Assembly (NCBI RefSeq): GCF_040359615.1 | Contig: NZ_CP132942.1 | Span: 744,001-808,000 of the forward strand | DNA from: Tunturibacter psychrotolerans | GTDB taxonomy: Bacteria; Acidobacteriota; Terriglobia; Terriglobales; Acidobacteriaceae | Reading direction: 5' to 3' | DNA length: 64,000 nt | Shown: positions 2,136 to 32,877 of the stretch, piece by piece | Position numbering within the stretch: position 1 is the stretch's first letter | Layout of the letters: every line of letters starts with the position of its first letter | The notes under the pieces: model-generated | The model's database searches: none | The model's input: only the letters and a program-made list of their open reading frames with translations | Told to the model about the DNA's origin: nothing | Made by a program: the position numbers and the translations under genes

Positions 2136-3524
2136 GTGAACGACTCCGACTCCAAATCCGCCCCCATCTTCGAAGACACCATCGTAGCCATCTCCACGCC
2201 CCCCGGCCGCGGCGGAATCGGCATCGTCCGTCTCTCCGGACCCGCGTCCCGCGCCATCGCCGAACCCCTCCTCAAACTCCGCCATCCCCTGGCCCCGGCC
2301 CAGGCCCGCTTCGCCGAAATCCTTGATTCCACAGGCGAAAATCCCACCCAAACCCTCGACGAAGCTGTAGTCACCTACTTCCAATTCCCCCACTCCTACA
2401 CCTCCGAAGACATCGTGGAGATCGCCGCTCACGGCTCCCCCGTCCTCCTTGATCACCTCCTCCGCCAATGCGTCGCCAACGGGGCCCGCCTCGCAGAACC
2501 CGGCGAATTCACCCAACGAGCCTTCCTCTCCGGCCGCCTTGACCTCACCCAGGCCGAAGCAGTCCGAGACCTCATCGAATCCACCACGCTCCATCAGGCC
2601 CGCATCGCCGCTCAGCAACTCGGGGGCTCTCTCTCCCGCCACATAACCCCAATAAAACAACAACTTATAAGCCTTATTGCAGCGCTAGAAGCCGGAATCG
2701 ACTTCGCCGAGGACGACATCGACTTCCTCCCGAACTCCCAAATCAGCACTCAAATCGCAGCGATCCAAGCTCCCCTCATAGCACTCGAGAAGTCTTTTTC
2801 CTACGGCCACATCGTCCGCGACGGCTTCACAATGGCCATAGTAGGCCGCCCCAACGTTGGTAAATCCTCTCTTTTCAATCGTCTCATCCAACGCGACCGC
2901 GCTATCGTCACTGCGACACCCGGCACAACCCGCGACTTGGTCACCGAACGGCTGTCGCTCGAAGGCATCCCCTTTGAACTGATCGACACCGCCGGTCTTC
3001 GCCAAGCGACCGACGAGGCCGAATCAATCGGCATCGCGAAGACCCGTGAAGCCATGTCAGAAGCCGATGTCGTGCTGCTCGTTTTGGACGCCACTGCGCC
3101 ACACCAAGACGACAATGCCACGGTAGCCGCTCTTTCCGGCCGCCCCTTCCTCATTGTTATCAACAAGCAAGACCTCGCCCATCCGGAGTCGCGAAGTTGG
3201 GAGCAGTCTCCTCAAACTGTCAAAACGTCCGCTCTCACTGGATCGGGCATTCTCGAGTTGCGCCGCGCAATTCTGTCATATATCGCCAGGGAGGTTCCAG
3301 ATATGGAATCCGCAGTCTTGACGAACCAACGGCAACAGCGCTCAGTATCGGACGCGACAACAGCTCTCCATCGGGCGCATCAGGCTGCATCCGCGAACAT
3401 CCCCCACGAAATGATTCTTCTTGATCTCTACGAAGGGCTGCGCGCTCTCGACGCTTTCAGCGGCTCCACAACGAGCGATGACATTCTCCACCTCATCTTC
3501 AGCAAGTTCTGCATCGGCAAATAA
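2136..3524 (+). CDS. mnmE: tRNA uridine-5-carboxymethylaminomethyl modification GTPase MnmE
   Basis: MnmE has 462 residues and, with MnmG, installs the cmnm5 group on U34 of certain tRNAs. The N-terminal formyl-THF-binding domain starts DTIVAISTPPGRGGIGIVRL. The G domain shows GRPNVGKSSLFN (G1), GTTRD (G2), DTAGL (G3), NKQD (G4) and SALTG (G5). The C-terminal FCIGK carries the catalytic cysteine loop. The start is GTG, since no in-frame ATG suits the conserved N-terminus. Its partner mnmG lies far away at 46082. The last 18 bases (3507-3524) are the left attachment site of the element that follows, so the reading frame is kept intact after integration. Confidence 0.97.
   Translation: MNDSDSKSAPIFEDTIVAISTPPGRGGIGIVRLSGPASRAIAEPLLKLRHPLAPAQARFAEILDSTGENPTQTLDEAVVTYFQFPHSYTSEDIVEIAAHGSPVLLDHLLRQCVANGARLAEPGEFTQRAFLSGRLDLTQAEAVRDLIESTTLHQARIAAQQLGGSLSRHITPIKQQLISLIAALEAGIDFAEDDIDFLPNSQISTQIAAIQAPLIALEKSFSYGHIVRDGFTMAIVGRPNVGKSSLFNRLIQRDRAIVTATPGTTRDLVTERLSLEGIPFELIDTAGLRQATDEAESIGIAKTREAMSEADVVLLVLDATAPHQDDNATVAALSGRPFLIVINKQDLAHPESRSWEQSPQTVKTSALTGSGILELRRAILSYIAREVPDMESAVLTNQRQQRSVSDATTALHRAHQAASANIPHEMILLDLYEGLRALDAFSGSTTSDDILHLIFSKFCIGK
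3507..3524 (+). repeat. attL: left attachment site in the 3' end of mnmE
   Basis: TTCTGCATCGGCAAATAA encodes FCIGK-stop of mnmE. It is repeated as TTCTGCATCGGCAAGTAG at 32860-32877. The two share an identical 15-bp core (GTTCTGCATCGGCAA, 3506-3520 and 32859-32873) and differ only at two synonymous positions after it. An integrase gene lies directly inside. The 3' end of trmE/thdF (mnmE) is the known site of SGI1-type islands. Confidence 0.9.
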
Positions 3525-3567
3525 AAGTGGTTCTTAGGCGCTCCGAGCAAATCCGTAACATCCGAAT

Positions 3568-3586
3568 TACTGTAATGTATACAGTA
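3568..3586. promoter_or_regulatory. Palindrome upstream of the integrase gene
   Basis: TACTGTA-atgta-TACAGTA is a perfect 7-bp inverted repeat with a 5-bp spacer. It lies 122 bp before the integrase ATG, just inside attL. It could be an operator for the integrase promoter or an Int/Xis arm site. There is no binding evidence beyond the symmetry. Confidence 0.5.
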
Positions 3587-3708
3587 CTTTAGTGACCAAA
3601 CGCGTCCAGGGGAATCCTCAGTGAGCCGTTCTCTAACTTGTCCACGACGCTGTACACTGAGCTCATGTTGCTATCAAAATCGGGTTCCGTGGACAATCTG
3701 AGGCACGG

Positions 3709-4887
3709 ATGCCTCTAACCGAACTCCAAATTAAGGCCCTCAAGCCCCAAGCAATTCGCTATGCCGTAAGCGATGGTAGGGGCCTCGCTCTTGAGGTGAT
3801 GCCGACGGGCGCAGCTTCCTGGCGATACAGATATCAGTTCAAGGGGAAGACTGAGAAGGTTTCGTTGGGCCAATACCCCCTTGTGAGTCTGAAGGCTGCG
3901 CGATCGAAACGCGACGAGCTTGCGAAAGCAGTTCATGAAGGCGTGTCCCCGGCAAAGCAAAAGCAGCTGGAGAAGTTCGCATTAGCTAACTCGACCTCCG
4001 TCTTCGACTTCAGTGAGCGTTATTTCAGAGAGGTGATCGAGAGAGATCGAAAGGACACTAAGCAGCTTCGGCGCTATCTCGAAAAAGAGATTTACCCCGC
4101 GTTCGGCACTTGGGCATTGAGGGACGTCACAGCTCAAGACGTGCAGCGACTCGTATTCAAGAAACGCGATAACGGATTCGAGTCAGCCGCCGCCCAGCTT
4201 CGCAACCTACTCAAGCGCATCTTCGATTACGCAATTGTCTGTGGGATCGTCACCGCCAACCCCACACATGCTACCCCCATGCGCTTCATAACACGAGCTC
4301 GCCCCAGGACGCGCTCGTTGTCTCCGGATGAACTGAAGATCTATCTTCAAGTTCTCTATCGCAGCAACATCCGTCGGCAGTTCAAACTGACGCTCCACAT
4401 CATTCTCCTAACGTTGGTTCGTAAATCTGAGCTACTACAGGCGAGGTGGATCAACGTAAATCTTGAAGCTGGAGAATGGTTGATACCTGAGGCACAGTCG
4501 AAGACAGGCAAACCGCACACTGTATATCTCTCAACTCAAGTCAGCGAGATGTTCAAGGAGTTGCAGCAACTCGCTGGCGACTCCGAGCTGGTCCTCCCTG
4601 GGCGAGGAAGCCTAACCAGACCGTTCGCTGCAAATGCCTTGAATCAAGCGATGGGAGCGATGAGCTTTCCAATTGCTCCTTTTACAATTCACGATTTGAG
4701 GCGCACCGGATCGACAATTCTGCACGAACAGGGATTCTCTTCTGACGTGGTCGAGAAAGCGCTAAATCACACGATTGGCGGGGTGCGCGGCGTGTACAAC
4801 AGGGCCGAGTATGCCGATCAGCGCAAGATGATGCTCCAATCCTGGGCCGATTACATATCGAGCCTCCATGGCCAACTTTACATATGA
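3709..4887 (+). CDS. int: Tyrosine site-specific integrase, P4 type
   Basis: This 392-residue integrase catalyses insertion and excision of the element. The N-terminal DUF4102 arm-binding domain (~1-85) starts MPLTELQIKALKPQ and has the KVSLGQYPLVSLKAAR signature. The catalytic domain (~200-380) shows Arg in LVRKSELLQARW, the HDLRRTG box, His in ALNHTIGGV and the nucleophile Tyr in GVYNRAEY. All expected catalytic residues are present, so it is likely active. It lies 185 bp from attL and reads into the element, as in P4-like and SGI1-like islands. Confidence 0.95.
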   Translation: MPLTELQIKALKPQAIRYAVSDGRGLALEVMPTGAASWRYRYQFKGKTEKVSLGQYPLVSLKAARSKRDELAKAVHEGVSPAKQKQLEKFALANSTSVFDFSERYFREVIERDRKDTKQLRRYLEKEIYPAFGTWALRDVTAQDVQRLVFKKRDNGFESAAAQLRNLLKRIFDYAIVCGIVTANPTHATPMRFITRARPRTRSLSPDELKIYLQVLYRSNIRRQFKLTLHIILLTLVRKSELLQARWINVNLEAGEWLIPEAQSKTGKPHTVYLSTQVSEMFKELQQLAGDSELVLPGRGSLTRPFAANALNQAMGAMSFPIAPFTIHDLRRTGSTILHEQGFSSDVVEKALNHTIGGVRGVYNRAEYADQRKMMLQSWADYISSLHGQLYI

Positions 4888-4900
4888 AAGGTCTCAGCTT

Positions 4901-5791
4901 ATGAGCAATATTGTTACAGAAGCGAGCGAAGCGGAAGACAGCGGAGAATCGTTTTCGCCGTTTGAACACCACGGAATTTACGATCGTATTCACCGATATA
5001 GCTATCTGCCTGATCCGTATCCGATCCTGCCGAATTTTGGAGTTTTATATCTGAGTGTGCCCCGTGCAGCCGCACTTATTGCTAACTATTTGGCCACGAC
5101 ACATCCAAACTCCGAACGTGAAGATAAGGCCGAACTCCGATCAGAGCTAACGGCTCAAGTGCAGGCTCGTATGTTGCAAGAAGTCACCAGTGGTCGCTTG
5201 ACATCCGTCACGACGATCGCAGATGCCGGCAACGTCACCGCCCAAAGAGATGAACAGACGCCGGCCGCAAATATCTATATCTTTTATGGAGATCTGATGA
5301 AATGGCTTGCCCTCATTGGATTCGACAAACGACTACTGTTTGAGAGCAAGGTTTTCGATGACTATGAGGATTTAGAGATCGCTCTCGCGAAACAGATCGA
5401 GCGTCTCATTTTAGAGAGACGTGAACTCGAAGGATACTCAGACAGCGAGTTGAGACCGCTAAAGAGGCAGGAATATCCTTTGTGTTTCTACGACGACGAA
5501 GGGCCCGATTTGGAAAGGGTCCTACTCCCTATAGTCTCTGAAAACCGTGATCTCAAGCGGCGCATCGCGGAAGCCCAGTCGCTACGACAGAAGCGCCTGC
5601 ATGCAAAGGAGGAGGCATCGATTTTAGTCGTTCTCGCCGCACTACTTGAAGAGAGGGGTTATGAGGATTGGAACAATGGGCTAGTTTCCAAAGTTGCGAA
5701 GAAGGCCGAGGGACTGCACGAGACGGTGACTGTAAACACTGTCCGCACGATGCTTGGAAAAGCTATTGAACTCATCAAGAAATCAAGTTGA
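4901..5791 (+). CDS. Element-borne protein of unknown function
   Basis: An ATG at 4901, with AAAGG 9 nt upstream, gives 296 residues. An ATG at 4868 in the same frame would overlap the integrase by 20 nt and lacks a good SD. The protein is soluble and charged. Residues ~210-250 (RDLKRRIAEAQSLRQKRLHA) look like a coiled coil. The C-terminal ~50 residues (TVTVNTVRTMLGKAIELIKK) could be a small helical DNA-binding fold. I recognise no family. Its place between int and the alpA/parA genes suggests a role in element maintenance, but that is inference only. Confidence 0.7.
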   Translation: MSNIVTEASEAEDSGESFSPFEHHGIYDRIHRYSYLPDPYPILPNFGVLYLSVPRAAALIANYLATTHPNSEREDKAELRSELTAQVQARMLQEVTSGRLTSVTTIADAGNVTAQRDEQTPAANIYIFYGDLMKWLALIGFDKRLLFESKVFDDYEDLEIALAKQIERLILERRELEGYSDSELRPLKRQEYPLCFYDDEGPDLERVLLPIVSENRDLKRRIAEAQSLRQKRLHAKEEASILVVLAALLEERGYEDWNNGLVSKVAKKAEGLHETVTVNTVRTMLGKAIELIKKSS

Positions 5792-5903: not shown

Positions 5904-6110
5904 ATGTCCAACAAAATTCTTAGACTTCCAGCGGTAAAGGCCAAGACTGGCCTTTCCCGTAGCACCATTTATGCGCGCGTTGCACAAGGCACATTTCCGG
6001 CAGCGCTAATTCTTGGTCCCAACACCGTCGGCTGGCTTGAGGCAGATGTTGAAGCTTGGATCGAGAAACAGATAGCGGCTACCCGCCGTTTGCAAGGGCG
6101 GGTAGCATGA
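5904..6110 (+). CDS. AlpA-family excisionase/regulator
   Basis: This 68-residue winged-helix DNA-binding protein opens ILRLPAVKAKTGLSRSTIYA, followed by RVAQGTFPAA. This is the standard AlpA/MerR-like helix-turn-helix seen in P4 and integrative elements, where such proteins act as integrase activators or directionality factors. The length is normal. It overlaps parA by 4 nt (ATGA at 6107-6110), so the two are translationally coupled. Whether it regulates this integrase or the parA operon cannot be told from sequence. Confidence 0.85.
   Translation: MSNKILRLPAVKAKTGLSRSTIYARVAQGTFPAALILGPNTVGWLEADVEAWIEKQIAATRRLQGRVA
6079..6105 (+). promoter_or_regulatory. Hairpin over the parA ribosome binding site
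   Basis: CTACCCGCC (6079-6087) pairs perfectly with GGCGGGTAG (6097-6105) across a 9-nt loop. The right arm holds the only purine-rich SD-like stretch before the parA ATG at 6107. Translation of alpA through this stem would open it, so this looks like a coupling device. Confidence 0.55.
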
Positions 6111-6904
6111 TCCGAATCGTTGTTGCCAATCAGCGTGGCGGTTCAGCCAAATCTACGACGACCGCGACGCTGGCCCGCTGCTTTGCCGACCGAGGGTTGC
6201 GAGTTCTAGTGATCGATGCCGATCCACAAGGGTCCCTTGCCGTGATCCTCGGGCTAAATCCTCCAGCTTTTCTTAATGATCTCCTGATAGAGAAGCTCGC
6301 GATCCGCGAGTGCGTCGTTAGCGCCAGGCCCGGACTCGACATCATCTGCGGCAACCGTTTCACCACGGACGCAGAGACCAAGACGATGGGACTACCGGGA
6401 AGTGAGTTTCTGTTCCGGCATCTCCTTGCCGACTACGAACGCGGTTACGATGCCGTCCTTATCGACGTAGCGCCCTCGATCAGCCTCTTCCAAACGTGTG
6501 CGATGGTCTACACACAGAACGTTTTGGTTCCGGTCGATATGGACATTCTGAGCGTTCAAGGCGCAACATCCACCATTCACGCCTGCGAGACCTTGAACCG
6601 CATGCTGGAACGTGGCCTTAACATTCGACCGCTTGGGATGCTGCCCGTGAAATTGAATCGTAGGCTGGCAGTGACTGAGATGGTGCTTACTACTCTGGCA
6701 TCTATTTCGGAGCGGCGCGACATCCCGATCTATGGACCTATCCGTACTGATCAGTCTGTCGTAAAGGCGGCTGCCGATCGCCAGTTCATCGCTGACTACG
6801 ACCCAAAATCCAAAGCACTGGAAGACTACGAGCAGTTGGCGAGCGAACTCATTTGTCGCTTTGGAAAAACGGAGGCAGTTCCGATCAATGTCAAAACAGC
6901 GTGA
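6107..6904 (+). CDS. parA: ParA-family ATPase
   Basis: The ATG at 6107 overlaps the AlpA stop and gives 265 residues, starting MIRIVVANQRGGSAKSTTTA. This is a deviant Walker A (GGSAKST), with arginine where most ParA/MinD proteins have the signature lysine. Walker A' is RVLVIDADPQGS and Walker B is YDAVLIDVAPSIS. ParA ATPases segregate plasmids and some integrated elements, usually with a ParB partner and a centromere. No ParB-like gene follows; the next ORF carries DNA repeats that could serve as the site. The ParA fold call is firm; the partition role is inferred. Confidence 0.9.
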   Translation: MIRIVVANQRGGSAKSTTTATLARCFADRGLRVLVIDADPQGSLAVILGLNPPAFLNDLLIEKLAIRECVVSARPGLDIICGNRFTTDAETKTMGLPGSEFLFRHLLADYERGYDAVLIDVAPSISLFQTCAMVYTQNVLVPVDMDILSVQGATSTIHACETLNRMLERGLNIRPLGMLPVKLNRRLAVTEMVLTTLASISERRDIPIYGPIRTDQSVVKAAADRQFIADYDPKSKALEDYEQLASELICRFGKTEAVPINVKTA

Positions 6905-8147
6905 ACGAGTCAAAAAGATATTGGATTGGGAGGAGTTGGAAAAAGCCCCAAATACACATGGAGCTTTTTCATTTCTCAAATCTGCGGCCGAGATTGTAAG
7001 TATTCGCAAGAATGATGTTCTCCCCGAAATCGCTGATAGGCAAATCAACGCTTCATCCAACGACAAAACGACCACAGTGGTCCCAGCAACCCCTGTGGCT
7101 GCTCAACCTCTAAAGGTGACGAGAAGTAGGCCTTACAAAGTACATCGCTGCACTCTCGTGCAGCATGGACAGTCACTCGGTGAAACAACGCTCTACCAAG
7201 CTCTTTGGACGCATGGAAAAGTGGAGACAGCCGAGACCAGAGCCATCACAACTGGATGGAGAACTATGAAAAGGCTTTGCGGAATGACGGACAAGAACTG
7301 TAAACGCAATACGGCTTCCCTCATCGCGAAGCTCGCCATCGAAGAGATTGGGAAAGAGAACGTCCATTTTAGGACCGGACGCACCTATCGCGTTTACTCC
7401 TTCACTAAAACGCTAGAGAGGCGTAAGGCAGCGGGTATGGAGTGGGCCGTTTGGGACAAAGGCCGGCGCTTCGTCCAAAGTGATGGGTCACCACTGGAGC
7501 TTAACTTTTACGCCGGTGACAAAACGACCACAGTGGTCGCTCCAATCCCAGTTGAGACGGCCACTGTGGACATATCGACCCCAGGGACTGTGGTCAAAAT
7601 AACCCCAGGGACTGTGGTCAAAACGACCCCAGTATTAGGAAGTACTTTAGGAAGAGAAAAGAAGAATGAATCGTCGTCGTCGACGAGTGACCTTGTCTTG
7701 ATACTCGACGCGCTGGGGGAAGAATCCTATGTGGTCGACGAACAGGCAGCGCTCCAAATTCTTTACTCCTGCCGGAACGTCTGTCCTGATGCGACTGCCA
7801 ACGAAATTGTCAGCATCATTCGCGAGAAGGGTGCAGTCATGCAATCGCGACGTAACGTTCGGAATCCGACCGGTTTCCTTCTGACCAGCGTTCTTTCGGT
7901 TTTCGATGGGGAGGGTATCAAGAGTTTCCGTCGACGTCAGGCTTCGGCTGCCGCTCGCGTAGAACAGCGCAACCAAGAAGAAAGCCGCAAACAGAGGGAG
8001 ATGTACGAGTGGCTTTTATCTGAACGGGATCGGCTGACATTGTTGATCCAGAATCCCGACACGTTGCCGAAGCGACATGATGACGCACGACGAGGATTAG
8101 CAGAGGTGCAGTCGGCATTGAGTTCCTATGCCGAAGATGAAGCTTGA
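6888..8147 (+). CDS. Replication/partition-associated protein with internal DNA repeats, function uncertain
   Basis: An ATG at 6888 (inside the parA end) gives about 419 residues; the frame opens further upstream at 6861. The N-terminal half (~75-190) contains VHRCTLVQHGQSLGETTLYQ and GWRTMKRLCGMTDKNCKRNT. This looks like a winged-helix DNA-binding region of the sort found in plasmid replication initiators. A low-complexity linker repeats KTTTVV and GTVVK motifs. The C-terminal ~120 residues are helical and charged (RRRQASAAARVEQRNQEESR). The linker is encoded by palindromic, iteron-like DNA. I do not recognise the family. A replication initiator or ParB-like role is a guess from position after parA. 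Confidence 0.65.
   Translation: MSKQRERVKKILDWEELEKAPNTHGAFSFLKSAAEIVSIRKNDVLPEIADRQINASSNDKTTTVVPATPVAAQPLKVTRSRPYKVHRCTLVQHGQSLGETTLYQALWTHGKVETAETRAITTGWRTMKRLCGMTDKNCKRNTASLIAKLAIEEIGKENVHFRTGRTYRVYSFTKTLERRKAAGMEWAVWDKGRRFVQSDGSPLELNFYAGDKTTTVVAPIPVETATVDISTPGTVVKITPGTVVKTTPVLGSTLGREKKNESSSSTSDLVLILDALGEESYVVDEQAALQILYSCRNVCPDATANEIVSIIREKGAVMQSRRNVRNPTGFLLTSVLSVFDGEGIKSFRRRQASAAARVEQRNQEESRKQREMYEWLLSERDRLTLLIQNPDTLPKRHDDARRGLAEVQSALSSYAEDEA
7070..7623 (+). repeat. Iteron-like repeats inside the gene after parA
   Basis: The palindrome GACCACAGTGGTC occurs at 7070-7082 and 7526-7538, each preceded by ACAAAAC. A 22-bp direct repeat (start ACCCCAGGGACTGTGGTC) occurs at 7578-7599 and 7602-7623, period 24, and contains the related half-site CTGTGGTC. 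The dense part is 7526-7623. Confidence 0.7.
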
Positions 8148-8921: not shown

Positions 8922-9069
8922 GAAATTTCTTCCTTTTTCTCCGCTGAAAGCGGCATGCGGATTTCTGCATACTTCACAGTTTACGGTCCGCCAACTCACG
9001 GCTGGTACGTAAGTTTTGGAGCGCAGCGGATCACTCTAACATCGCCATCGAGAGGCGATTAACACTGTA

Positions 9070-9142
9070 AGCCAGAGCACACGTCCCCGCTTGCGCGGTT
9101 CCGTGATCTGGCTCAGGGGCTAGGGTTTCACCCTCCCCTGAG
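9070..9142 (+). other. Candidate transfer origin (oriT) or leader with nested hairpins
   Basis: AGCCAGA (9070-9076) pairs with TCTGGCT (9107-9113). Overlapping it, CTCAGGGG (9112-9119) pairs with CCCCTGAG (9135-9142), with an inner AGGGT/ACCCT stem (9122-9126, 9130-9134). It lies 27 bp before the mobC-like start, where oriT usually sits in ColE1/MOBP systems. No known nic consensus was matched, so oriT is inferred from position and structure. Confidence 0.5.
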
Positions 9143-9168: not shown

Positions 9169-9591
9169 ATGGCGGTGATCCGCAATCGTGGTAAAAATGC
9201 GCGGAATGTCAGCCGGAAGATCTGGCTGAGCCCGGCTGAGGCCGAGCAGATCAGAGACGCCGCCGGCGACGTGCCGGTCGCTACTTGGCTGCGCGATCTT
9301 GCCTTGGGCCAGCCCTCCAAGCCACGCAGATTGCAGCGGCAAGAGACCGCCACGCGTACCCCAAAGTTCGCGGGCGCCATCCAGCCGTTGGCGGTCGCCG
9401 TGGCTCGCGTCGGCAACAACCTAAACCAGATTGCACGCGCAGTGAACCGGGACCTGAAGTCGCGCAAGCCATTGGACGCCGTTCTAATCGCCAATCAGCT
9501 CGCTCATCTCCGTCATGAGATGCGGGACGAACTGCAAACTGTGAGCAGCCAGTTTCTGAGGGAGGTCAATCGTGCTGGCAAGGATATTTAA
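9169..9591 (+). CDS. mobC: MobC/MbeC-like relaxosome accessory protein
   Basis: This 140-residue protein has an N-terminal ribbon-helix-helix-like segment (RKIWLSPAEAEQIRDAAGDV) and the MobC signature ARVGNNLNQIARAVN. These proteins bind near oriT and help the relaxase open the duplex for conjugative mobilisation. The length is slightly above ColE1 MbeC. The gene overlaps the relaxase start by 20 nt (GTG at 9572). The SD is GAAAGG about 9 nt before the ATG. Confidence 0.9.
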   Translation: MAVIRNRGKNARNVSRKIWLSPAEAEQIRDAAGDVPVATWLRDLALGQPSKPRRLQRQETATRTPKFAGAIQPLAVAVARVGNNLNQIARAVNRDLKSRKPLDAVLIANQLAHLRHEMRDELQTVSSQFLREVNRAGKDI

Positions 9592-25343: not shown

Positions 25344-26620
25344 GCGTGCGTGGGTTCCTCTGCGCGTGATGCGTTGTATTCAAACAATAACTTGGCTGCG
25401 TCGTCTTGACTAAAGTGCTGCTCGATTCGCTCGCGGAACTTGGGATCTTGTGTGATCGTTTCGTAGTGGACGCCCTTGAAGATGCAGGTAATGCTCGGAT
25501 CGAAGCTCTCCTCCACGCTGAGGAAGGCCTCGTCAACTGCGTGCTCCAGACGACTCAGGAGAGCAGCGTCGTCTAGCGTCCCATCCAACGAGTCATCGAG
25601 CCATTTCTTCGGGGGTGCCACTTTGACTCGCTTATGGAGGGACTCTACGAGACCATCCCTCGTCTCCTTGATTTTGGCCGCTATGTTTGCCTTGACCAAG
25701 TCAGCGTAGATGGTCAGGAGGTTTCTCAAGCGTTCTACACCGGCTTCAAACGAAGGCTTGTGCCGCTTTTGAATCAGGCTTCCGTACGTTCCCAGTGACT
25801 TGAGCTTCTTCCGCAACTCTTTGGCTTCCTTAGCGAAATACTCCTCCGTGAGCTTGATCTCGCGGGATGCGTCGTCAGGATCTTCAATCTCGAAGCTGAA
25901 AGGAACGCCGGCTTCAAACACTTTGAAGGTGTTGCGCAGCCGCTCCTGCAGATCCTTCTCTGCAAGCCCGAGAATGTCAGCAGGAAGCGAAACAACTCGC
26001 GAGTTCAAGCGGCAACCGTCGATCGAGAACTCTACGAATTCCAACTTGTAGTTGAACACCCTCTCCAACCGCACCAGATCGAATCGTCGAGGAGGATTCG
26101 CCTCAAGATCGGCTTTCGCGTCAGCGACAGCCTGATCACTTACGTCTCGCAATCCAACTTCCTGAATGAACCCCAGGTCGGACGTTTCCTTTCCACCGCA
26201 GGCGAAGGAAAGCTCCTGCGGGCCTGCTCCAGTAATCCGTATGGCATTCGGCTTCTCCTCGGAGGTCGAGCCGGCTTCAATCAGCTGTGGCGTGGGTGAA
26301 TACACGAGGACATCATCGTCCGCAACGATGAGGCCAATACGCACTCCGGCCTGAGTGTGAAGGGGCCTTTCAAGCGATGCCAGCGCATCCCGAAGCATGT
26401 CGACGGCTTGGATTTCGCCGTATCCTAGCCGGCAAACCTCAGGATCTGTATCCAAGGTGATGGAGAGCTCAGACAGTGGTTTGCCGACTTGCAGCCGCTC
26501 CACCAGCGCAATTGCGACCCCTTTGGAAAGACCCGGAGCGACGATCACGAGGCGTTCTGCCGAGTTTTGAATGAGGTTGATGAGAGCTTCGTCGGAAGCT
26601 ACGGTAAACAGTCGTGCCAT
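25340..26620 (-). CDS. BREX-operon protein with a PLD-like N-terminal fold, function unknown
   Basis: This has 426 residues, inserted between brxC and pglX, overlapping pglX by 4 nt and 9 nt after brxC. The first ~120 residues (DEALINLIQNSAERLVIVAP, then AGVRIGLIVADDDVLVYSPT) have the strand-helix pattern of a phospholipase-D-like half domain, but the HxKxxxxD catalytic motif is absent. A middle alpha/beta region and a long helical, charged C-terminal half (YFAKEAKELRKKLKSLGTYG) follow. It is not one of the six core type 1 proteins. Tight coupling implies it belongs to the system, perhaps as a DNA- or BrxL-binding accessory. That is inference. Confidence 0.8.
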   Translation of the reverse strand: MARLFTVASDEALINLIQNSAERLVIVAPGLSKGVAIALVERLQVGKPLSELSITLDTDPEVCRLGYGEIQAVDMLRDALASLERPLHTQAGVRIGLIVADDDVLVYSPTPQLIEAGSTSEEKPNAIRITGAGPQELSFACGGKETSDLGFIQEVGLRDVSDQAVADAKADLEANPPRRFDLVRLERVFNYKLEFVEFSIDGCRLNSRVVSLPADILGLAEKDLQERLRNTFKVFEAGVPFSFEIEDPDDASREIKLTEEYFAKEAKELRKKLKSLGTYGSLIQKRHKPSFEAGVERLRNLLTIYADLVKANIAAKIKETRDGLVESLHKRVKVAPPKKWLDDSLDGTLDDAALLSRLEHAVDEAFLSVEESFDPSITCIFKGVHYETITQDPKFRERIEQHFSQDDAAKLLFEYNASRAEEPTHA

Positions 26621-26629: not shown

Positions 26630-29600
26630 TTACAGAGTGATGATGTTCCCCTTGTTGAGTTCTGCTTCAGCCACGGCTCGCAGCGCTGCGAGCCACTGAT
26701 CCAACTCCGGCACTGAGGAAATGATCGCTAAGGCGCATTTGGGCTGAAGATTCTTTGACGGGATATATTCCACCTGGTGCACAGGTGCAGCTGGTATTAC
26801 CGTTGGCGACCCTGACGGCGCCGGAGCAGGAGAAGGCTTTGGCGCAACGAGGCGGGCAGCAAGCGCGACCTGGGCTGGATACTCTTGATTGACGTAGCGC
26901 TGGACCCGATCCCTGATCCCCGAAGCAAAGCGTGCGGAGAGAATCTCCTTGCGGGCTGCCACAGTGGCCATCATCACCAGTTCGCGACCGCCACTGCTCA
27001 GTGTGGAGAAGTCCGGCACCGTTGCGAGGCGTTCTTCCTGGGCGCAAAGTGTATCGGTCGCTTTCTCGCGTTCAGCTTTCAGGAGTTCCGCAAGCAACGC
27101 CCGGAGCTTGGTGACGGCTAACTTTCCGGCTGGAACGAGCCCGCCGACGTACGGGCGGCTCGAACCGGCCAGACTGCGAAGCGGGGCGACTTCATCGGGT
27201 GGTAATTCGACGAAATTTGCTTCTTCTTCCCTCAGAAACGCAATAGCTTCGTCATAAATCGCGCGCTGCGGGCCGCGCATGAACGCTTTGATGGGAGCCA
27301 CGGTAACCAGCTTGGAATCAAGCAGGTCATTCTGGAAGTCTGCCAGACGGCTCAGCAAATAGCTGTAATCCTTTTTCGCCAACTTTCCTACTTCATTGGC
27401 AACAGGGCGCAACGCTTCAAGGAAGGGGTAACGGCTGACCTGATCCAGAAGCGCTGTTAGTTCAATCGACTCAATGCCAAATCCTTCTACAGTGGCTTGC
27501 CCAACGGAGCGTGCGTCAACACCAGGGTTTTGACGATCGAAGAAATCAGCGTGAAAACTTTTTAGTGCATTGACCATAGAGGCATCAAATTGCTCCTGCA
27601 GCCGCACTCGTACCTGACTCCACTGACGGTTGCTGCGCATGCTCGCCAGAACGCCACGGGCGTCCAGCACGTCAGGTCCGCGAAGCTCGACTTTCCCCAT
27701 CCGAAACAATCGTGCGAGCAAACACAAGACTGCGAGCTGACCCCATCCATAGGGCCTGCGCTCAAAATTCTTGATGATCTCGTCCAGCGAAGTGCGCTCA
27801 CCGTTGTTCTGGTTCATCGTCACGTAAGAGAGGATTTCTTGTTCAGGCTCCGAGGGTGGAAGAACACCACCGGTAAGCAGGTCATCTTGCCCCAGCAGGG
27901 CTTGTGAAAGCAGGGCGTCATCATACGTGCCCTTGAGAATCCGGAGGCTGGGATAGGAGAACGAAATCAACTGTTGGAAGGCTTTGGCAAACCGATTCCG
28001 GGCGTCACCGTCGCCCAAGCCTTCGATCTTCGCTCCGTTGATGTACAACTGCGCTTTGGCGAGGAACTCCTCCGCGACGGATTCCATGTTGGTTCGTCGC
28101 GTGCTGTTCTGCTGTCCACGTTGCGTAACAATGGCCTTTCTGGTTTCATCGACACCACTGCTGTTCTGATCAACATATTTCTTCGTCTGCAGCCACAGTC
28201 TGGTTTGCTCAGCCAACCTGTTATCAGGCGGCAGAATCGCTAGTAGCTCAGGCTTACCCATGTTCTGCATTGCCAAAATGCTGGTCTGCGCATACTGGTC
28301 ATGGTCCATAGTGATCAGGTTCACTTTCACATCGGCATCGCGTTTCCCAATCAGCTGGTCGTCGATCTTTCTTGCAAAGGAATAATCCTGCCCGTTGCCC
28401 TGATAGCGGATTCTTGCGTCGCGCAAGACGTCACCAAACATCACGTCAGCGAGTGTATCGATCACCTGAGAATCATCGATCTCGGTGTTCTTAATCTCGA
28501 CTTCGATATCCTTCTCAGTGTCGGTCAGAAATTCGTAAGCATCCCCATTTCGTTGCAGATACGATTGGGATTCAAGATGCTCCAAGGCCTCCTTAACTTT
28601 CATCTCATGAGCACGAATGTCGACGTCTGCCGCTTCGATCAGCAAGATCGCTACGTTCCTGGGTGTGGCTTTGAAATCCCGAACCCATTTTAGGAGAAAA
28701 AGTGATTTGAGAATTCGGATCTCTAAGCCTTCACTTAGCTGATTCTCAGCCATACTTAGAGTCGTCTGCATGTCACCTCGAATCGAGGCAGAGATGCCGT
28801 CATACATTAGGTCAAACGTCGCAAGACGCCCCACATCTTCATTGCGAATAGCCTTCGCAACCTCTTGAAATACGGCTAACATGGAGCGTTCGCCCACAGA
28901 AAGGTATTTCCCTGTGAAAGCGTTGTGCTTAGATAGTTCCTGAATCGCCCGCTGAAAGAGGTCGAACTGATATGGATGGAACGGATAAAACTTGCAAAAC
29001 TCATCGCTGCCGCGCCAACCGTTGAAGCTCAGTGAATTGTCTCCAAAACGAAAGAGAGTCTTCAGGTTTTCTTTCTCTTGATCGAAGATCGACGTCAGCA
29101 CTTCCGGCTCTGACTCTTTCTTTGCGAGAAGTCTTTCCTGAATCACCTCGCGAACGTCTCCGCTCGCAAGTGTCAATTGAGTCTTAAACCGCGCCGTAAT
29201 TTTCGAGAGATCGTGCGCTTCCGAGCCTCGAAACGTGCCGAGTACCCCTTCGAGATCTGCTTGCGAAGTAACGAATACCCATGCCTTTCCATCACAGATG
29301 GTCGCCAGGGTCTCTGCAAGAGTCTGCAGATTCAGCATCAGCTTTGAATCTTGACCAATGAATTGTCCGACTTCGTCAACAAAGAAGTTGAGACGAAAAT
29401 TCGACACTTGCTTCGAAATGTACTCCTTTACCGAGTGAGCAAAGCTTTCAATCGAAACCCTGTATTCCTGCCTCACTTGTCTCATCACATCGGAGGCTTC
29501 AGATTCCGGCACCTGAAAGTGTGCTGCGTAAGCCTTCCCGAAGGCTGCCCGCTTGATGGTTGCCAGGGCCTCGCGGTCTATTTCCCACGGAGTGCCGTTT

Positions 29601-30148
29601 ACTGCTTCATAAGTTGCCTTGAATGGGACGAAGTCGCCCCTTGAATCCAGATCGCGCTCAAATTTAGCGATGTAGCCTTGTTTGCCGTAATAGCCTTGCA
29701 GCTCGTTCAACACCTTCATGAATACTTCCAAGATTGGAGCTGTATGATCGCCGCCGACGCCATCAAACTTCTGATCAATGTTGAAGAGGATGCTTCGTGC
29801 AGGTATCGAAGCCGAGGTTCGAAGAGCTGCCTGCACAATCTCATCGCTAATCTTGGGCAAAATGATGTCTGCTGGCCGCCTGCCACTCGGTAAGGGCCGT
29901 TCGTCCAGAACCAACGAAAGCATCTTAAGAAGGTGGGACTTTCCGGACCCGAAAAAACCGGATATCCAAACGCCGTTCGCTGTGGTCTCCCTGAGGTAAC
30001 GGTCGGTGAAATTGCCCAGACCTTTGCTTACGTCCCGGGTGACGACGTACTCGTCAAGCTCGGTCTCCTCATGGCGGATGTCATCAGCCTTGATTACGCC
30101 CTCGATCGGACGATCTACTGGCTTTAGAAAGAGTTCGAAAATCTTCAT
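26630..30148 (-). CDS. brxC: BREX P-loop protein BrxC
   Basis: This has 1172 residues and opens MKIFELFLKPVDRPIEGVIK, the standard BrxC N-terminus. Walker A GFFGSGKSHLLKM is at ~63-75 and a Walker-B-like FRLNFFVDEVGQFIGQD at ~250. The C-terminal half is helical and contains the DUF6079-like body. BrxC is a large ATPase thought to work with BrxB and PglZ in phage exclusion. It lies 5 nt from brxB and 9 nt from the next gene. Length and motifs are normal. Confidence 0.96.
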   Translation of the reverse strand: MKIFELFLKPVDRPIEGVIKADDIRHEETELDEYVVTRDVSKGLGNFTDRYLRETTANGVWISGFFGSGKSHLLKMLSLVLDERPLPSGRRPADIILPKISDEIVQAALRTSASIPARSILFNIDQKFDGVGGDHTAPILEVFMKVLNELQGYYGKQGYIAKFERDLDSRGDFVPFKATYEAVNGTPWEIDREALATIKRAAFGKAYAAHFQVPESEASDVMRQVRQEYRVSIESFAHSVKEYISKQVSNFRLNFFVDEVGQFIGQDSKLMLNLQTLAETLATICDGKAWVFVTSQADLEGVLGTFRGSEAHDLSKITARFKTQLTLASGDVREVIQERLLAKKESEPEVLTSIFDQEKENLKTLFRFGDNSLSFNGWRGSDEFCKFYPFHPYQFDLFQRAIQELSKHNAFTGKYLSVGERSMLAVFQEVAKAIRNEDVGRLATFDLMYDGISASIRGDMQTTLSMAENQLSEGLEIRILKSLFLLKWVRDFKATPRNVAILLIEAADVDIRAHEMKVKEALEHLESQSYLQRNGDAYEFLTDTEKDIEVEIKNTEIDDSQVIDTLADVMFGDVLRDARIRYQGNGQDYSFARKIDDQLIGKRDADVKVNLITMDHDQYAQTSILAMQNMGKPELLAILPPDNRLAEQTRLWLQTKKYVDQNSSGVDETRKAIVTQRGQQNSTRRTNMESVAEEFLAKAQLYINGAKIEGLGDGDARNRFAKAFQQLISFSYPSLRILKGTYDDALLSQALLGQDDLLTGGVLPPSEPEQEILSYVTMNQNNGERTSLDEIIKNFERRPYGWGQLAVLCLLARLFRMGKVELRGPDVLDARGVLASMRSNRQWSQVRVRLQEQFDASMVNALKSFHADFFDRQNPGVDARSVGQATVEGFGIESIELTALLDQVSRYPFLEALRPVANEVGKLAKKDYSYLLSRLADFQNDLLDSKLVTVAPIKAFMRGPQRAIYDEAIAFLREEEANFVELPPDEVAPLRSLAGSSRPYVGGLVPAGKLAVTKLRALLAELLKAEREKATDTLCAQEERLATVPDFSTLSSGGRELVMMATVAARKEILSARFASGIRDRVQRYVNQEYPAQVALAARLVAPKPSPAPAPSGSPTVIPAAPVHQVEYIPSKNLQPKCALAIISSVPELDQWLAALRAVAEAELNKGNIITL

Positions 30149-30153
30149 GAATT

Positions 30154-30759
30154 CTAGATCCTGTAATGGTCCATGTTGGAAGCTCGATAGTACGGATTGT
30201 TGATCAACGGGCTTGGAATCGAGCCAAAAAGTTGAAGATGAGAACCGCCAGTGGCATCCTGGTCATATCGTCCAGGAAAGAAAATGATGATAGGGTGACG
30301 GAGCATCGCCGGTTGGACAGATTCAAGAATTGTGTGAGTCCGCAAAAATGGAAAGAGCCGCCCGGAGCCCGTCAGAAACGTTAGGTCGCTTCCTAAATCG
30401 ATCACCTGTTTAAGGCGTGGCACCAAATGTGTTCGTGGATCGGAGCAATTGCGAAGCGTTTCAAGCACCTCTGCTTTCGTAAAGGTTGATTCCTCTTCGA
30501 TCAGACCGGAGAGTAGTTGAGAATCGTCGAGATCATCCAAAACGAGGTCAAAGAAATCCGTCCTGCTTACTGTTTTGCCGTCGCTTCGCAGCCGGGCGGC
30601 TAGACCTTCCACCATGTTTCTTAGATCGTCCTCATGGGCTGTGTCATAAGTCTGAATGAAAAGTGGAACCTCATTCGCCTGCCCCTTCATTGAAAGAAAT
30701 GCTTGGCTGCTGAAAATCGTAAACAGCCGTTCTGATAGGTTCGCAATCTGGGAGATCAT
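30154..30759 (-). CDS. brxB: BREX protein BrxB (DUF1788)
   Basis: This has 201 residues. It begins ISQIANLSERLFTIFSSQAF and holds the family's HPIIIFFPGRYDQD segment and a C-terminal LINNPYYRASNMDHYRI. BrxB is a small core component of type 1 BREX with no known enzymatic activity. The gene overlaps brxA by 4 nt and lies 5 nt before brxC. Family assignment is secure from order and signature. Confidence 0.95.
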   Translation of the reverse strand: MISQIANLSERLFTIFSSQAFLSMKGQANEVPLFIQTYDTAHEDDLRNMVEGLAARLRSDGKTVSRTDFFDLVLDDLDDSQLLSGLIEEESTFTKAEVLETLRNCSDPRTHLVPRLKQVIDLGSDLTFLTGSGRLFPFLRTHTILESVQPAMLRHPIIIFFPGRYDQDATGGSHLQLFGSIPSPLINNPYYRASNMDHYRI

Positions 30760-31496
30760 CTGAGCCCTCCAATCTCGTTGTCAGGAATCAGAAATCCTGC
30801 TAACCAGCAAGGATCATCGTCAACGATCGCGTCGGAAACAGCTCTCGGTAGCAAGCTTCGCCTAATTGTTCCAAGAGCTGGACCTGGCAAGAGCAGATTC
30901 GCTTCCACAAGCATCCGTAGCAATACTTGTCGGAGCTTCGTCGCTGAGGATGCAGTCACCCGAGCGAGCTCAGGGTATGTAAGGGACTTTGCATCAAAAT
31001 ATGTGTCGTAATCGGAGCGGCGCAGAATGGGGTCGTGAGCAGCTAGCTTTGCGCGCAGCACTTCCGATGCAAAATCGAAGACAAATCTAATATGCTTGAT
31101 TGCCGCTAACCAAGCCACTGCAGTTCGGGCGTCGCTGGTCGCGGTCGAGAGTACTGTAAGTTCTTGATCAGTGAGGCACATGAGGCGCTGACGGAGCTCT
31201 CGCTCCAGGCGCACTGCACTCCTCTGACTTCGACATTGCAACGCATTTGAGCTTAGAACGTCTTCTTTGACTGTTTTCCAATCCCCAAACTTCAGATAGC
31301 TGCCTGCGATAACGCGGGCAAGATCCGGGCGAAGAGATGCCGCCGTAAACGCAAGAGAATATATTGGTGAATTGTTCGTTCGCATCGTATGATCCGGTCT
31401 GATTTGTATCCCTACGGCAAAGGGAGCAATCTTGGCGACACTTTGCCGTTGAAACTGCTTACTGCTCATTTCGTGCATGATCACGGCCAATCTCAC
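30756..31496 (-). CDS. brxA: BREX protein BrxA (DUF1819)
   Basis: The frame gives 246 residues from a GTG at 31496, which overlaps the HEPN stop (GTGA). The usual BrxA N-terminus (PIYSLAFTAASLRPDLARVI) begins after the internal ATG at 31385, giving 209 residues, near the family length. The first is supported by coupling, the second by length. The DUF1819 body includes LKFGDWKTVKEDVL and a winged-helix-like C-terminus (LTYPELARVTASSATKLRQV). BrxA proteins bind DNA in structural work. It is part of the BREX operon, overlapping brxB by 4 nt. Confidence 0.93.
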   Translation of the reverse strand: MRLAVIMHEMSSKQFQRQSVAKIAPFAVGIQIRPDHTMRTNNSPIYSLAFTAASLRPDLARVIAGSYLKFGDWKTVKEDVLSSNALQCRSQRSAVRLERELRQRLMCLTDQELTVLSTATSDARTAVAWLAAIKHIRFVFDFASEVLRAKLAAHDPILRRSDYDTYFDAKSLTYPELARVTASSATKLRQVLLRMLVEANLLLPGPALGTIRRSLLPRAVSDAIVDDDPCWLAGFLIPDNEIGGLR

Positions 31497-31945
31497 GAGG
31501 CGACCGCAGGGTGCTTAGCTCGCAACCATTTCTCTACCAAGGTGCGAAACTCATTTGCCTTCTGGACAATCTCATCCGATTCGGTGTCCGTTGCAACCGA
31601 CGAAGTCATATAGTCGATGACGTTGCGTTTCCGTCGACAAGTGTCGAAGTAGTCTGACAAGGCGACCGCTTCTGTCCCTAATGCAACGGCCGCGGCTTCA
31701 AAGGTGACCTTATGATGGCCCGACCGCGCGCTAACCCTGTACCCGGAACAGGCAATCGCAATGATGCCTGTCTGGAGAGCTGCGTTGTAGGCTGTCGCGA
31801 ATCTCCGATCGGCAGACAAGCCACTCATCGCAGCATCTGCGAGATCGCGAGCGATCAGAGCGCGAAGATTATCCACTTCCTGTTTGCTGGTTTGATGTGT
31901 TTTCACATCGCCTTTAGCCAGCCACTGCTGCCAACTCGCCATCAT
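31493..31945 (-). CDS. HEPN-like protein, partner of the MNT protein
   Basis: This is a 150-residue all-helical protein with an ATG at 31945 inside the MNT gene (32-nt overlap). The C-terminal CRRKRNVIDYMTSSVAT matches the HEPN catalytic region RNxxxY, though the usual His of R-x4-6-H is replaced (D-Y follows). The central NAALQTGIIAIACSGYRVSA and HHKVTFEAAAVAL fit the HEPN four-helix bundle seen in MNT-linked proteins. HEPN/MNT pairs act as toxin-antitoxin RNases, with the MNT protein modifying the HEPN. The missing His may mean weak or altered activity. Here it precedes brxA directly. Confidence 0.8.
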   Translation of the reverse strand: MMASWQQWLAKGDVKTHQTSKQEVDNLRALIARDLADAAMSGLSADRRFATAYNAALQTGIIAIACSGYRVSARSGHHKVTFEAAAVALGTEAVALSDYFDTCRRKRNVIDYMTSSVATDTESDEIVQKANEFRTLVEKWLRAKHPAVAS

Positions 31946-32534
31946 TTCCTTTCACAAACTCTTTCGCACCTCGTAGCACGGTGGCTAGGAAATGATCGTG
32001 GTTCTTTGTCTTCGCTTTGAACTCCTTGGAGGAGTACACGGTGGGATTGACTGGCCTTCCAAATCGCTGCTCCGCTCGTCGTAGCGAAGGCACTAAGTCA
32101 GCGAGGCCTACATCCCCCACAATCATAAGGTCCACATCGCTCTCCGACGACTCTTCCGATCGTGCAGTTGAGCCGTAAATAAAGGCGAGTTGGATACGCT
32201 CCCCGAAGGCGTCCACTTCCTGCTTGAGGATGGGGATCAGGCCTACGGTCTTTTCGAGAAGACCTCTGAGGTCTGAGAAGACAGGGGAATTCGTGTCCGC
32301 CTTGAAGTAGACGCGACGGCCATCCTTCGTCTGTTCCAAAAGCCCTGCTTTGCTCAGGGCCTCGACTTCCCTTTGCAAACTTGAGGGCTGAGTTTCGAGA
32401 CGCGATGCCAATTCTGTGAGATACCATCGCTTCTCTGGCTGGAGCAGGAGCACGGCCAGAATCTTCGACCGTATATCCGGGAACAGCGCTTCGAGAATGG
32501 GCGAACTACGCATCCTGCGTAGATAATTACGCAA
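31914..32534 (-). CDS. Winged-helix plus MNT nucleotidyltransferase protein leading the BREX operon
   Basis: The frame starts with TTG at 32534 (206 residues) or ATG at 32513 (199). The N-terminal ~75 residues form an ArsR-like winged helix (KILAVLLLQPEKRWYLTELA, then EVEALSKAGLLEQTKDGRRV). The C-terminal nucleotidyltransferase has IYGSTARSEESSESDVDLMI, the GS-x-D-x-D motif with both Asp. MNT proteins neutralise HEPN toxins by adding nucleotides. The fused DNA-binding domain and two palindromes over its start suggest it also represses its own operon. It is the first gene of a nine-gene BREX transcript. Confidence 0.88.
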   Translation of the reverse strand: MRNYLRRMRSSPILEALFPDIRSKILAVLLLQPEKRWYLTELASRLETQPSSLQREVEALSKAGLLEQTKDGRRVYFKADTNSPVFSDLRGLLEKTVGLIPILKQEVDAFGERIQLAFIYGSTARSEESSESDVDLMIVGDVGLADLVPSLRRAEQRFGRPVNPTVYSSKEFKAKTKNHDHFLATVLRGAKEFVKGNDGELAAVAG

Positions 32535-32543
32535 TCGGCGTAG
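32506..32543. promoter_or_regulatory. Twin operator palindromes at the head of the BREX operon
   Basis: CTACGC-atcct-GCGTAG (32506-32522) and TACGC-aatcg-GCGTA (32528-32542) share the half-site TACGC with a 5-bp spacer. Their centres are 21 bp apart. They cover the candidate start codons of the winged-helix/MNT gene, which is well placed to be the binding protein. Confidence 0.7.
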
Positions 32544-32599
32544 TAAGTCAAGAAGATCTAGCCAGGGTGGACGATGTCATTTACAACCATTGCCACGGA

Positions 32600-32740
32600 A
32601 CTGCGGGCGCTTCTTCGCGATGAAGTTTCCAACCTTCGCCAGAGTCTTTGTTGGAGCGATACCCAACGTAGATCGGGATACCCGTCCCAGCGAAGGACGC
32701 GAACTTCGGGGTCGCCCATCTTGATCCCAAGAGCCTTGGC
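32600..32740 (-). pseudogene. umuC: umuC fragment (Y-family DNA polymerase), decayed
   Basis: On the minus strand one frame reads GAKALGIKMGDPEVRV (~32740-32695), matching the UmuC EAKALGIKMG-[DE]-P motif. A second frame reads LGIAPTKTLAKVGNFIAKK (~32666-32605), matching the UmuC G-x-GPTKTLAK-x-AN motif. In intact UmuC these lie about 85 residues apart; here they are about 25 apart and in different frames. So there has been at least one internal deletion and a frameshift. The start, palm acidic residues and C-terminus are missing. It lies ~120 bp inside attR, a typical spot for debris from earlier insertions. Confidence 0.75.
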
Positions 32741-32859
32741 TCCTAAGATATGTGGAATAGCACCATGTCGTTGTCGTACTTTGACCACCAAGTTGTCCAC
32801 ATCTAGCCACACTAAGTGATAAATCCTTTATTTCATTGCGTTTTTCGAGATTACGTACG

Positions 32860-32877
32860 TTCTGCATCGGCAAGTAG
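32860..32877 (+). repeat. attR: right attachment site of the element
   Basis: TTCTGCATCGGCAAGTAG reproduces the mnmE 3' end with two synonymous changes (AAA to AAG, TAA to TAG). It would also encode FCIGK-stop. It marks the right boundary of the 29.4-kb element. Beyond it lies 294 bp of non-coding flank before the diguanylate cyclase gene. Confidence 0.9.

Follow-up and report, generated by a model that had tools for sequence, protein, structure and literature searches.

The question raised by this locus is how more than 29 kb of DNA came to lie directly downstream of mnmE in the acidobacterium Tunturibacter psychrotolerans, and what that DNA does. The window analyzed here is a stretch of 64,000 nucleotides (assembly GCF_040359615.1, contig NZ_CP132942.1, positions 744,001 to 808,000 of the forward strand). 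A preliminary description, made from the sequence alone, had placed in it a 29.4-kb integrative mobilizable element (IME) in the 3′ end of mnmE, bounded by attL and attR. The present analysis supports that proposal: the interval 3525–32877 measures 29,353 bp, and relatives display both the same ends and an empty site. It is very probable that the tract is an IME of an acidobacterium, residing in the mnmE 3′ end and carrying defense cargo. The earlier interpretation thus stands; BREX and IetAS cargo went unmentioned in it.

Boundaries of the Element

The integration site comprises three features.

2136–3524, plus strand: mnmE (trmE/thdF), the host gene; full-length open reading frame (ORF) with an FCIGK-stop end, its last 18 bp being the attachment site
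3507–3524, plus strand: attL, FCIGK-stop 18-mer
32860–32877, plus strand: attR, FCIGK-stop 18-mer

The reading frame of mnmE is open to its end, and the two 18-mers reported earlier are both present. The exact pattern TTCTGCATCGGCAARTAR has two copies in the whole genome (5,636,298 bases, 2 contigs), namely attL and attR, and its reversed control pattern has none in the same 5,636,298 bases. When up to 3 mismatches are allowed, the window contains three matches to the att 18-mer, vs 0.19 expected from shuffles; the third lies on the minus strand at 10087–10104. A 15-bp identical stretch, GTTCTGCATCGGCAA, is found at both ends (3506–3520 and 32859–32873). The two differences between attL and attR fall in the last four bases (AATAA and AGTAG, respectively), at positions 15 and 18 of the 18-mer, and both are synonymous, as the preliminary description had stated. 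The GC content is 53.2% within the element and 58.5% in the rest of the window.

In SGI1, an island of Gammaproteobacteria, the chromosome-specific bases sit in the right repeat, placing strand exchange upstream of position 9 (PMC2297512). By analogy, attL would carry the element's version of the site and attR the host's; the observed bases fit such an arrangement, which is no test of it.

A degenerate form of the FCIGK-stop motif is present in 213 of 359 class genomes, once per genome in most rows listed, and its reversed control is present in 16 rows by manual count. Judged by these sequences, the motif mostly marks mnmE. One genome has a second FCIGK-stop motif together with an mnmE C-terminal fragment (G023:C1:3692338–3692500), 314 kb away from mnmE.

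Empty, Refilled, and Tandem Sites in Relatives

A search for mnmE in 41 genomes, including that of T. psychrotolerans, matched 41 of 41, the weakest matches probably being other GTPases. The DNA downstream of mnmE was read in 19 same-genus relatives, as 20 stretches of 3.5–20 kb, some of them ended by the contig. In G014 (mnmE 84%), mnmE is followed by about 100 bp and then, with no insert, by the GGDEF-panC-panB flank that stands right of attR in the window. This is the only clean empty site counted, since in G018, which also gives no integrase match, mnmE and the GGDEF gene are separated by 7.1 kb of unrelated sequence. G002, the nearest sampled relative by mnmE (91% identical), carries the same two versions of the 18-mer as attL and attR, 22.85 kb apart and followed by the same flank as in the window. 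Its match to the window element is limited to the first ~1.07 kb (integrase), the last ~1.0 kb (a pair of nucleotidyltransferase and HEPN genes, MNT-HEPN), and a stretch around attR. The G002 integrase is frameshifted, and the cargo looks metabolic from its translations (TonB-type receptors, nucleoside hydrolases, and a sugar kinase). The comparison with relatives that the preliminary description had recommended therefore yields an empty site in one genome and the same att ends around other cargo in another.

Other relatives extend the pattern. G020 has an integrase and homologues of three further genes of the element (ORF307-like, ParA, and ORF428), with an att pair 26.7 kb apart. In G102, three copies of att, spaced 22.8 and 10.5 kb, precede the same GGDEF-panC-panB genes; the two inserts between them stand in tandem, the second without a match to the window integrase. 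No integrase match at 1e-5 was found downstream of mnmE in the other 16 of the 19 relatives. Across 399 class genomes, an integrase homologue at E ≤ 1e-60 occurs in five (the window's, G102, G340, G395, and G397), and in all five it lies directly downstream of mnmE; the G395 integrase is partial and that of G397 contains stops. A second att copy follows 15.1 kb further on in G397. The two att copies of G319, separated by 19.5 kb, enclose no match to the window integrase.

A short sequence, TTGTCCAC, marks the ends from within.

3638–3645, plus strand: putative arm-type integrase site TTGTCCAC, 131 bp right of the attL start; same offset in G002, G102, and G020
3689–3696, minus strand: putative arm-type site TTGTCCAC, inverted, 182 bp right of the attL start; offset 181–182 in G002, G102, and G020
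32793–32800, plus strand: putative arm-type site TTGTCCAC, 67 bp left of attR

Exactly three copies of this 8-mer occur in the 64-kb window on either strand, all at the element ends. Relative to the att sites, the copies stand at +131, +182, and −67 in G102 (the last with respect to the middle att), at +131, +181, and −66 in G020, and at +131 and +182 in G002; none is present in G397, L107, or L128. We infer from their placement that these copies may be integrase arm sites.

It might be argued that the second FCIGK motif is coincidental and that the genes in between are ordinary chromosome. No point in favor of such a chance repeat was found. It is contradicted by the empty and differently filled sites, by the restriction of the pattern to two copies in the genome, and by the placement of TTGTCCAC at the ends, and it can be set aside with near certainty.

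Between attR and the point from which the flank can be aligned lie approximately 287 bp (32878–33164), which may be the scar of an earlier insertion. Further into the right flank, a repeated sequence (GTCCTGCCGGACGG... and CACTTCGTGACTTGTG...) is found at 42710, 48086, 57418, and 61133.

An Integrase Family Linked to the mnmE Site

3709–4887, plus strand: P4-type tyrosine integrase with Arm-DNA-bind_3, Phage_int_M, and Phage_integrase domains

The integrase had been described as P4-type with all catalytic residues, and indeed R238, K265, H328, R331, H354, and Y363 are found; all six are invariant in an alignment with three homologues. The alignment of these four integrases, all of them mnmE-located, supplied protein patterns for a family scan of named genome contigs in which the attachment site was not used. 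Seventy-seven loci were recovered, from Acidobacteriota and Pseudomonadota apart from a weak archaeal match (L145). The att motif, at ≤2 mismatches, lies within 700 bp upstream of the integrase in 74 of the 77, and an mnmE protein match ends there or nearby in 71. For 66 of these 74 loci, the distance from the motif start to the integrase match is 190–213 bp; as a control, the motif occurs in 5 of 848 700-bp spans downstream of the integrase. The exceptions are L109, L144, and L145, the last two being weak partial matches. L109, from an Azoarcus metagenome-assembled genome (MAG), is the only full-length integrase of the family without an upstream mnmE motif, and it has no mnmE match upstream. 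The 8-mer TTGTCCAC is present in 6 of the 74 integrase leaders, vs 0.25 expected from shuffles; since only these six leaders have it, it characterizes the nearest lineage.

A tree of 64 rows was built from 62 of the 77 loci, the window, and one outgroup, with 15 loci dropped for stops or shortness. Acidobacteriota and Pseudomonadota each need one change (support 99/99), and the window integrase groups with Acidobacteriota, in a tree whose root is uncertain, whose outgroup branch is very long, many of whose rows are MAGs, and which holds no SGI1 integrase. The outgroup is a Proteus integrase 36% identical to that of the window and not located beside an mnmE end. Within Pseudomonadota, Pseudomonas oleovorans and an Achromobacter have identical integrases. 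In E. coli, 9 of 60 rows listed matched only the mnmE half of the query; four of these nine loci were read, and each has another gene between mnmE and tnaC and no annotated integrase. Likewise, no such integrase lies within 2.5 kb of mnmE in four chromosome-like records of the plasmid collection.

The Mobilization Module

9059–9118, plus strand: candidate oriT, ColE1-like; TAAGCCAG at 9068–9075, inverted repeat 9070–9080/9103–9113
9169–9591, plus strand: mobC, relaxosome accessory protein; PF05713, E 9.6e-8
9572–11161, plus strand: mobA, MbeA-like MOBP relaxase; NF047848, E 8e-56, 190 bits
10299–10853, plus strand: nested mbeB-like frame in mobA; reading frame (+1) and order shared with four ColE1-type plasmids
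10863–11129, plus strand: nested mbeD-like frame in mobA; reading frame (+1) and order shared with four ColE1-type plasmids

Residues 1–458 of MobA align with positions 1–429 of 497 in NF047848, the model for ColE1 MbeA, at a score below the naming cut-off of 500 bits; MobA also falls just under the Pfam relaxase cut-off (23 vs 24.6 bits). Motif III of MobA reads H108-E115-H117, not H-E-N, when the residues are placed at the intervals they have in MbeA. The MOBP(HEN) group is defined by H-E-N in motif III, as in ColE1 (PMC12857230). Matches to MobA were obtained in 3,673 of 72,556 plasmid records, 3,477 of these typed mobilizable. The 15 plasmid matches listed are to small plasmids, with 33–37% identity over 57–78% of MobA length, and the annotation under the match is MbeB-family or none in 14 of them and hypothetical protein in one.

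The arrangement of the module also resembles that of ColE1. In four of four ColE1-type plasmids opened, mobA contains both mbeB and mbeD in its +1 frame; mobA is unannotated in these plasmids, and the tblastn match served to define its reading frame. The nested frames of the window, of 184 and 88 codons, have the same place, frame, and order. Compared with plasmid MbeB, the first gives z values of 1.5–4.7 against shuffles, two of four comparisons being below 2, and with two of the plasmids 22 and 15 of 300 shuffles attained its score; the second gives z values of 2.9–6.1. A control frame against MbeB gives −0.7 to 0.5. Neither nested frame has a significant match in Pfam (MbeB_N, E 0.39; MbeD_MobD, E 0.87). 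Synonymous shuffles of mobA produce an open frame that long in 4.8% of cases and as few stops in 8.3%. Taken together, sequence support for mbeB- and mbeD-like nested frames is moderate. For the segment 9059–9118, upstream of mobC, alignments to the oriT regions of three plasmids of the ColE1 type were obtained at scores that 3, 1, and 3 of 500 dinucleotide shuffles attained. The relaxase family, nested frames, and oriT agree with the ColE1-like mobilization module proposed earlier.

The element thus has its own integrase with att sites bounding it, and its own relaxase with a candidate oriT, without a type IV secretion system (T4SS) by a test for VirB4 (PF03135); these are the features that characterize an IME. 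Beyond the window, the G020 element has a TrbL/VirB6-like gene (L050, 5345–6838), perhaps a remnant of a conjugative module.

Several observations weigh against the interpretation as an IME. TTGTCCAC lies also away from the ends in relatives (one more copy in G102, two in G020), and near attR of G002 there is no exact TTGTCCAC, only a changed copy. The segment 32878–33164 is without a BLAST match in G014, and only ~53 bp of it match G002. At E ≤ 1e-15, relatives of MobA are found in five other genomes among the 399 of the class (31–35% identity), all from other families; since none belongs to the family of T. psychrotolerans, the mobilization module is not shared backbone. The frameshift in the G002 integrase, the stops in that of G397, and the partial gene of G395 imply that not all copies are active. 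Finally, no VirB4 match was found in the host genome, by a search that was confined to this one T4SS family, others not being searched, and whose control was positive in 1 of 14 genomes. The element therefore appears to have no resident helper, as far as this single-family test goes, and its transfer would need a visiting one.

The missing VirB4 also favors the view that the tract is a dead defense island, an old insertion unable to leave and kept for its defense genes alone. Decay at the site does occur, as in the frameshifted integrase of G002 and in G319, where an att pair lacks this integrase. Against this, the integrase, mobC, mobA, brx, and iet frames are all open, the catalytic residues are present, and the att and arm sites are preserved. 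A dead island seems unlikely, and we retain the interpretation of the tract as an IME.

Backbone Genes

4868–5791, plus strand: ORF307, backbone protein of unknown function; 27–40% identical in G102, G020, and L120
5904–6110, plus strand: AlpA-family helix-turn-helix (HTH) protein, candidate excisionase or regulator; PF05930, E 1.4e-16
6056–6904, plus strand: ParA-type partition ATPase; PF13614, E 6.2e-33; 79–88% identical in G020 and G102
6861–8147, plus strand: ORF428, ParA-linked backbone protein; homologues in G102 and G020; structure model

The integrase, ORF307, ParA, and ORF428 recur in G102 and G020; in the window, AlpA lies between ORF307 and ParA. The combination of an integrase with AlpA is also a feature of P4-type satellite phages, which have capsid-hijacking genes in addition. 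The listed ParA ORF begins inside alpA, and an internal ATG (~6107) is the likelier start. The structure model of ORF428 (mean pLDDT 74, pTM 0.34) shows an alpha/beta domain at residues 94–205, a disordered linker, and a helical C-terminus; we read the domain, from the model, as winged-helix-like. Sixty-nine homologues of ORF428 were obtained, but their names are uninformative, one of them being annotated as cell wall assembly regulator SMI1. A single homologue (P0056) carries a precomputed PF11638, the DnaA N-terminal domain, and the others are without a Pfam domain. ORF428 was considered as a known Rep protein and rejected: it has no Pfam, NCBIfam, or plasmid match (72,556 records), and its PDB matches are unconvincing (best E 0.54). 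It is possible that ORF428 is a replication or partition partner. Just after it lies a 22-nt inverted repeat (8172–8193/8282–8303, 95% complementary), a possible replication, regulatory, or transfer site.

These genes raise the possibility that the tract is no IME but an integrated plasmid, whose circle would replicate on its own by means of a working replicon and partition system formed by ParA and ORF428. In favor of this are the conservation of ParA-ORF428 in the G102 and G020 elements, the inverted repeat, the PF11638 domain in one ORF428 homologue, and the mobilization cassette, ColE1-type cassettes being plasmid features. The failure of ORF428 to match any of the plasmid records, Pfam, NCBIfam, or, convincingly, the PDB argues against it, and we consider an autonomously replicating plasmid improbable.

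Predicted Defense Cargo

12162–12746, minus strand: 194-aa protein of unknown function; no Pfam or PADLOC match
13037–15277, minus strand: IetS, subtilisin-like protease of IetAS; PDLC02197, E 2e-41
15293–16414, minus strand: IetA, AAA+ ATPase of IetAS; PDLC02196, E 2.5e-79
17246–19396, minus strand: brxL; PDLC02508, E 1.1e-296; TIGR02688 over cut-off
19377–21878, minus strand: pglZ (brxZ); PDLC02547, E 4.5e-228
21891–25343, minus strand: pglX (brxX), adenine methyltransferase; PDLC02521, E 0
25340–26620, minus strand: ORF426, unnamed gene within the BREX run; no family match; same place in G417
26630–30148, minus strand: brxC; PDLC02479, E 0; BrxC domains
30154–30759, minus strand: brxB; PF08747, PDLC02463
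30756–31496, minus strand: brxA; PF08849, PDLC02443
31493–31945, minus strand: HEPN partner (PDC-M05B); PDLC04374, E 9.6e-65
31914–32534, minus strand: HTH-nucleotidyltransferase partner (PDC-M05A); PDLC04368, E 1.6e-64

Type I BREX is defined by the six genes brxA, brxB, brxC, pglX, pglZ, and brxL. The set is complete here and, as in other type I systems, forms one gene run, differing in the presence of ORF426 between brxC and pglX and of MNT-HEPN ahead. IetA adjoins IetS, and this pair of AAA+ ATPase and subtilisin-like protease, which matches the PADLOC IetA and IetS models over most of the length of the models, shows no notable difference from IetAS. From these gene assignments, the cargo is predicted to block phages.

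ORF426 has 152 homologues, and a profile search of the PDB revealed no convincing relative (best E 0.0062, a helical apolipoprotein). It was rejected as a general BREX component: it occurs in 6 of 399 class genomes, T. psychrotolerans included, and among the five others only G417 has it between brxC and pglX. In the other four (32–41% identical), tblastn with the window proteins detected no brxC or pglX neighbor in 1.5-kb flanks.

The HTH-nucleotidyltransferase and HEPN pair (31493–32534) overlaps the BREX gene run at its head. Homologues of MNT are present in 57 of the 399 class genomes, and a HEPN match follows MNT in 28 of 30 loci read, including that of the window. The occurrence of the pair with BREX here and with Hma in G020 suggested that MNT-HEPN might serve as a header of defense operons. 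This idea was dropped: of ten downstream proteins chosen from the 30 loci, only three have a PADLOC match, and the pair is accordingly treated as a free-standing module.

Related elements carry other cargo. The G020 element has HmaA, a split HmaB, HmaC, a SoFic-like protein, and an MNT-HEPN pair, as well as a CBASS set of E2, a split cyclase, and a SAVED-HNH effector. In G102, RNase H-like, nucleotide-kinase-like, adenylosuccinate-synthetase-like, and dCTP-deaminase-like genes stand side by side (L067, 1772–6448), possibly a nucleotide-based defense or modification set; three larger proteins of this element have no Pfam match. For Pseudomonadota, 21 chosen loci (8–10 kb downstream) were scanned and yielded 44 ORFs of ≥300 codons within 8 kb of the integrase, none of them in L096. 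The first entry listed is DrmD-like. Among the 25 most shared of 293 models are type I methyltransferase (five ORFs), type I restriction enzyme (four), and DruE helicase (four); because the models overlap and only these 25 are considered, the matches are no system calls.

Relationship to Known Elements

As noted in the preliminary description, the end of mnmE is also the site used by SGI1, and at the level of the site this is right. Two reports describe an 18-bp site at the end of trmE and tandem arrays (PMC2297512, PMC9035990). SGI1 and SGI1-related islands thus share with the element a gene-end site of 18 bp, a tyrosine integrase, and tandem arrays, the latter seen in G102 among the relatives sampled. 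These likenesses would be explained if a member of the SGI1 family had arrived in Acidobacteria. SGI1 is reported, however, to move with its own oriT and MpsA/MpsB, an atypical relaxase related to tyrosine recombinases (PMC6414798). No MpsA/MpsB-type relaxase was found here: among the proteins scanned, the integrase is the sole tyrosine-recombinase match. SGI1 belongs to Gammaproteobacteria and uses MpsAB, whereas the element belongs to another phylum and has an MbeA-like relaxase and a ColE1-like oriT. SGI1 has rep, sgaC/sgaD, and tra genes where the element has its ParA-ORF428 backbone, and it carries a resistance integron rather than defense cargo. The grouping of the integrase with Acidobacteriota, in a tree without the SGI1 integrase, likewise argues against membership of the SGI1 family. 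Judged by the relaxase, this is no relative of SGI1, and the arrival of an SGI1-family member is highly improbable.

Islands of the MGIVchHai6 type, which use trmE, yicC, or dusA, resemble the IME of T. psychrotolerans in both the trmE site and an anti-phage cargo, of restriction-modification and BREX systems, described for the group (PMC7449626). There, type 1 BREX is found in the yicC-specific group A and type I restriction-modification in most trmE-specific islands. They are mobilized by IncC plasmids via MobI and its oriT, and the passages considered name no MbeA-type relaxase (PMC7449626). With the ColE1 mobilization cassette, the element shares its gene order, the +1 frame of its putative nested genes, MbeA-like relaxase, and TAAGCCAG-type candidate oriT upstream of mobC. 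Unlike ColE1, it is integrated and resides in an acidobacterium, motif III is H-E-H, and the putative nested proteins are only weakly similar.

IMEs in trmE/mnmE with defense cargo are therefore already known from Gammaproteobacteria. The phylum appears to be new, as do the ColE1-type cassette, the backbone of ParA and ORF428, and the breadth of an integrase family tied to this site. In the open-licence literature searched, no acidobacterial mnmE element and no MbeA-relaxase element of Acidobacteriota was found among the titles and abstracts listed.

A Possible Life Cycle

The features of the IME suggest how it might move. The integrase would recombine the final 18 bp of mnmE with an attP of the same length, so that the inserted element restores the FCIGK-stop end and leaves the host gene whole. 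The TTGTCCAC arm sites at both ends probably organize integrase binding, and AlpA is a candidate excisionase. After excision, MobA and MobC could nick the ColE1-like oriT at ~9059–9118, and a conjugative element visiting the cell would supply the T4SS through which the nicked strand exits. Persistence of the circular form may be aided by ParA and ORF428. The cargo of IetAS, BREX, and MNT-HEPN would repay the cost of its carriage by protecting against phages and perhaps against competing plasmids.

Implications

The integrase family as a whole leads to a broader proposal, which the evidence moderately favors. The mnmE 3′ end may be the docking port of one old and dedicated integrase family, present in at least two phyla, whose acidobacterial and proteobacterial lineages are unmixed in the genomes sampled and which moves between families within Pseudomonadota. 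The cargo would be interchangeable and much of it anti-phage, with BREX and IetAS in T. psychrotolerans and Hma, CBASS, type I restriction-modification, Druantia-like, and DISARM-like genes in other members. Mobilization cassettes, in the present case an entire ColE1-type one, would likewise be swapped in as cargo.

The ColE1-type mobilization cassette is known from small gammaproteobacterial plasmids. Its presence on an integrated element of a different phylum, the Acidobacteriota, a major one in soils, prompts the question as to what helper could move this element. If the reading given here is true, the DNA downstream of mnmE would offer a simple way to find mobile islands with exact ends across phyla, many of the islands found there would carry defense cargo, and the integrase tree would test how long a preference for one site can last.

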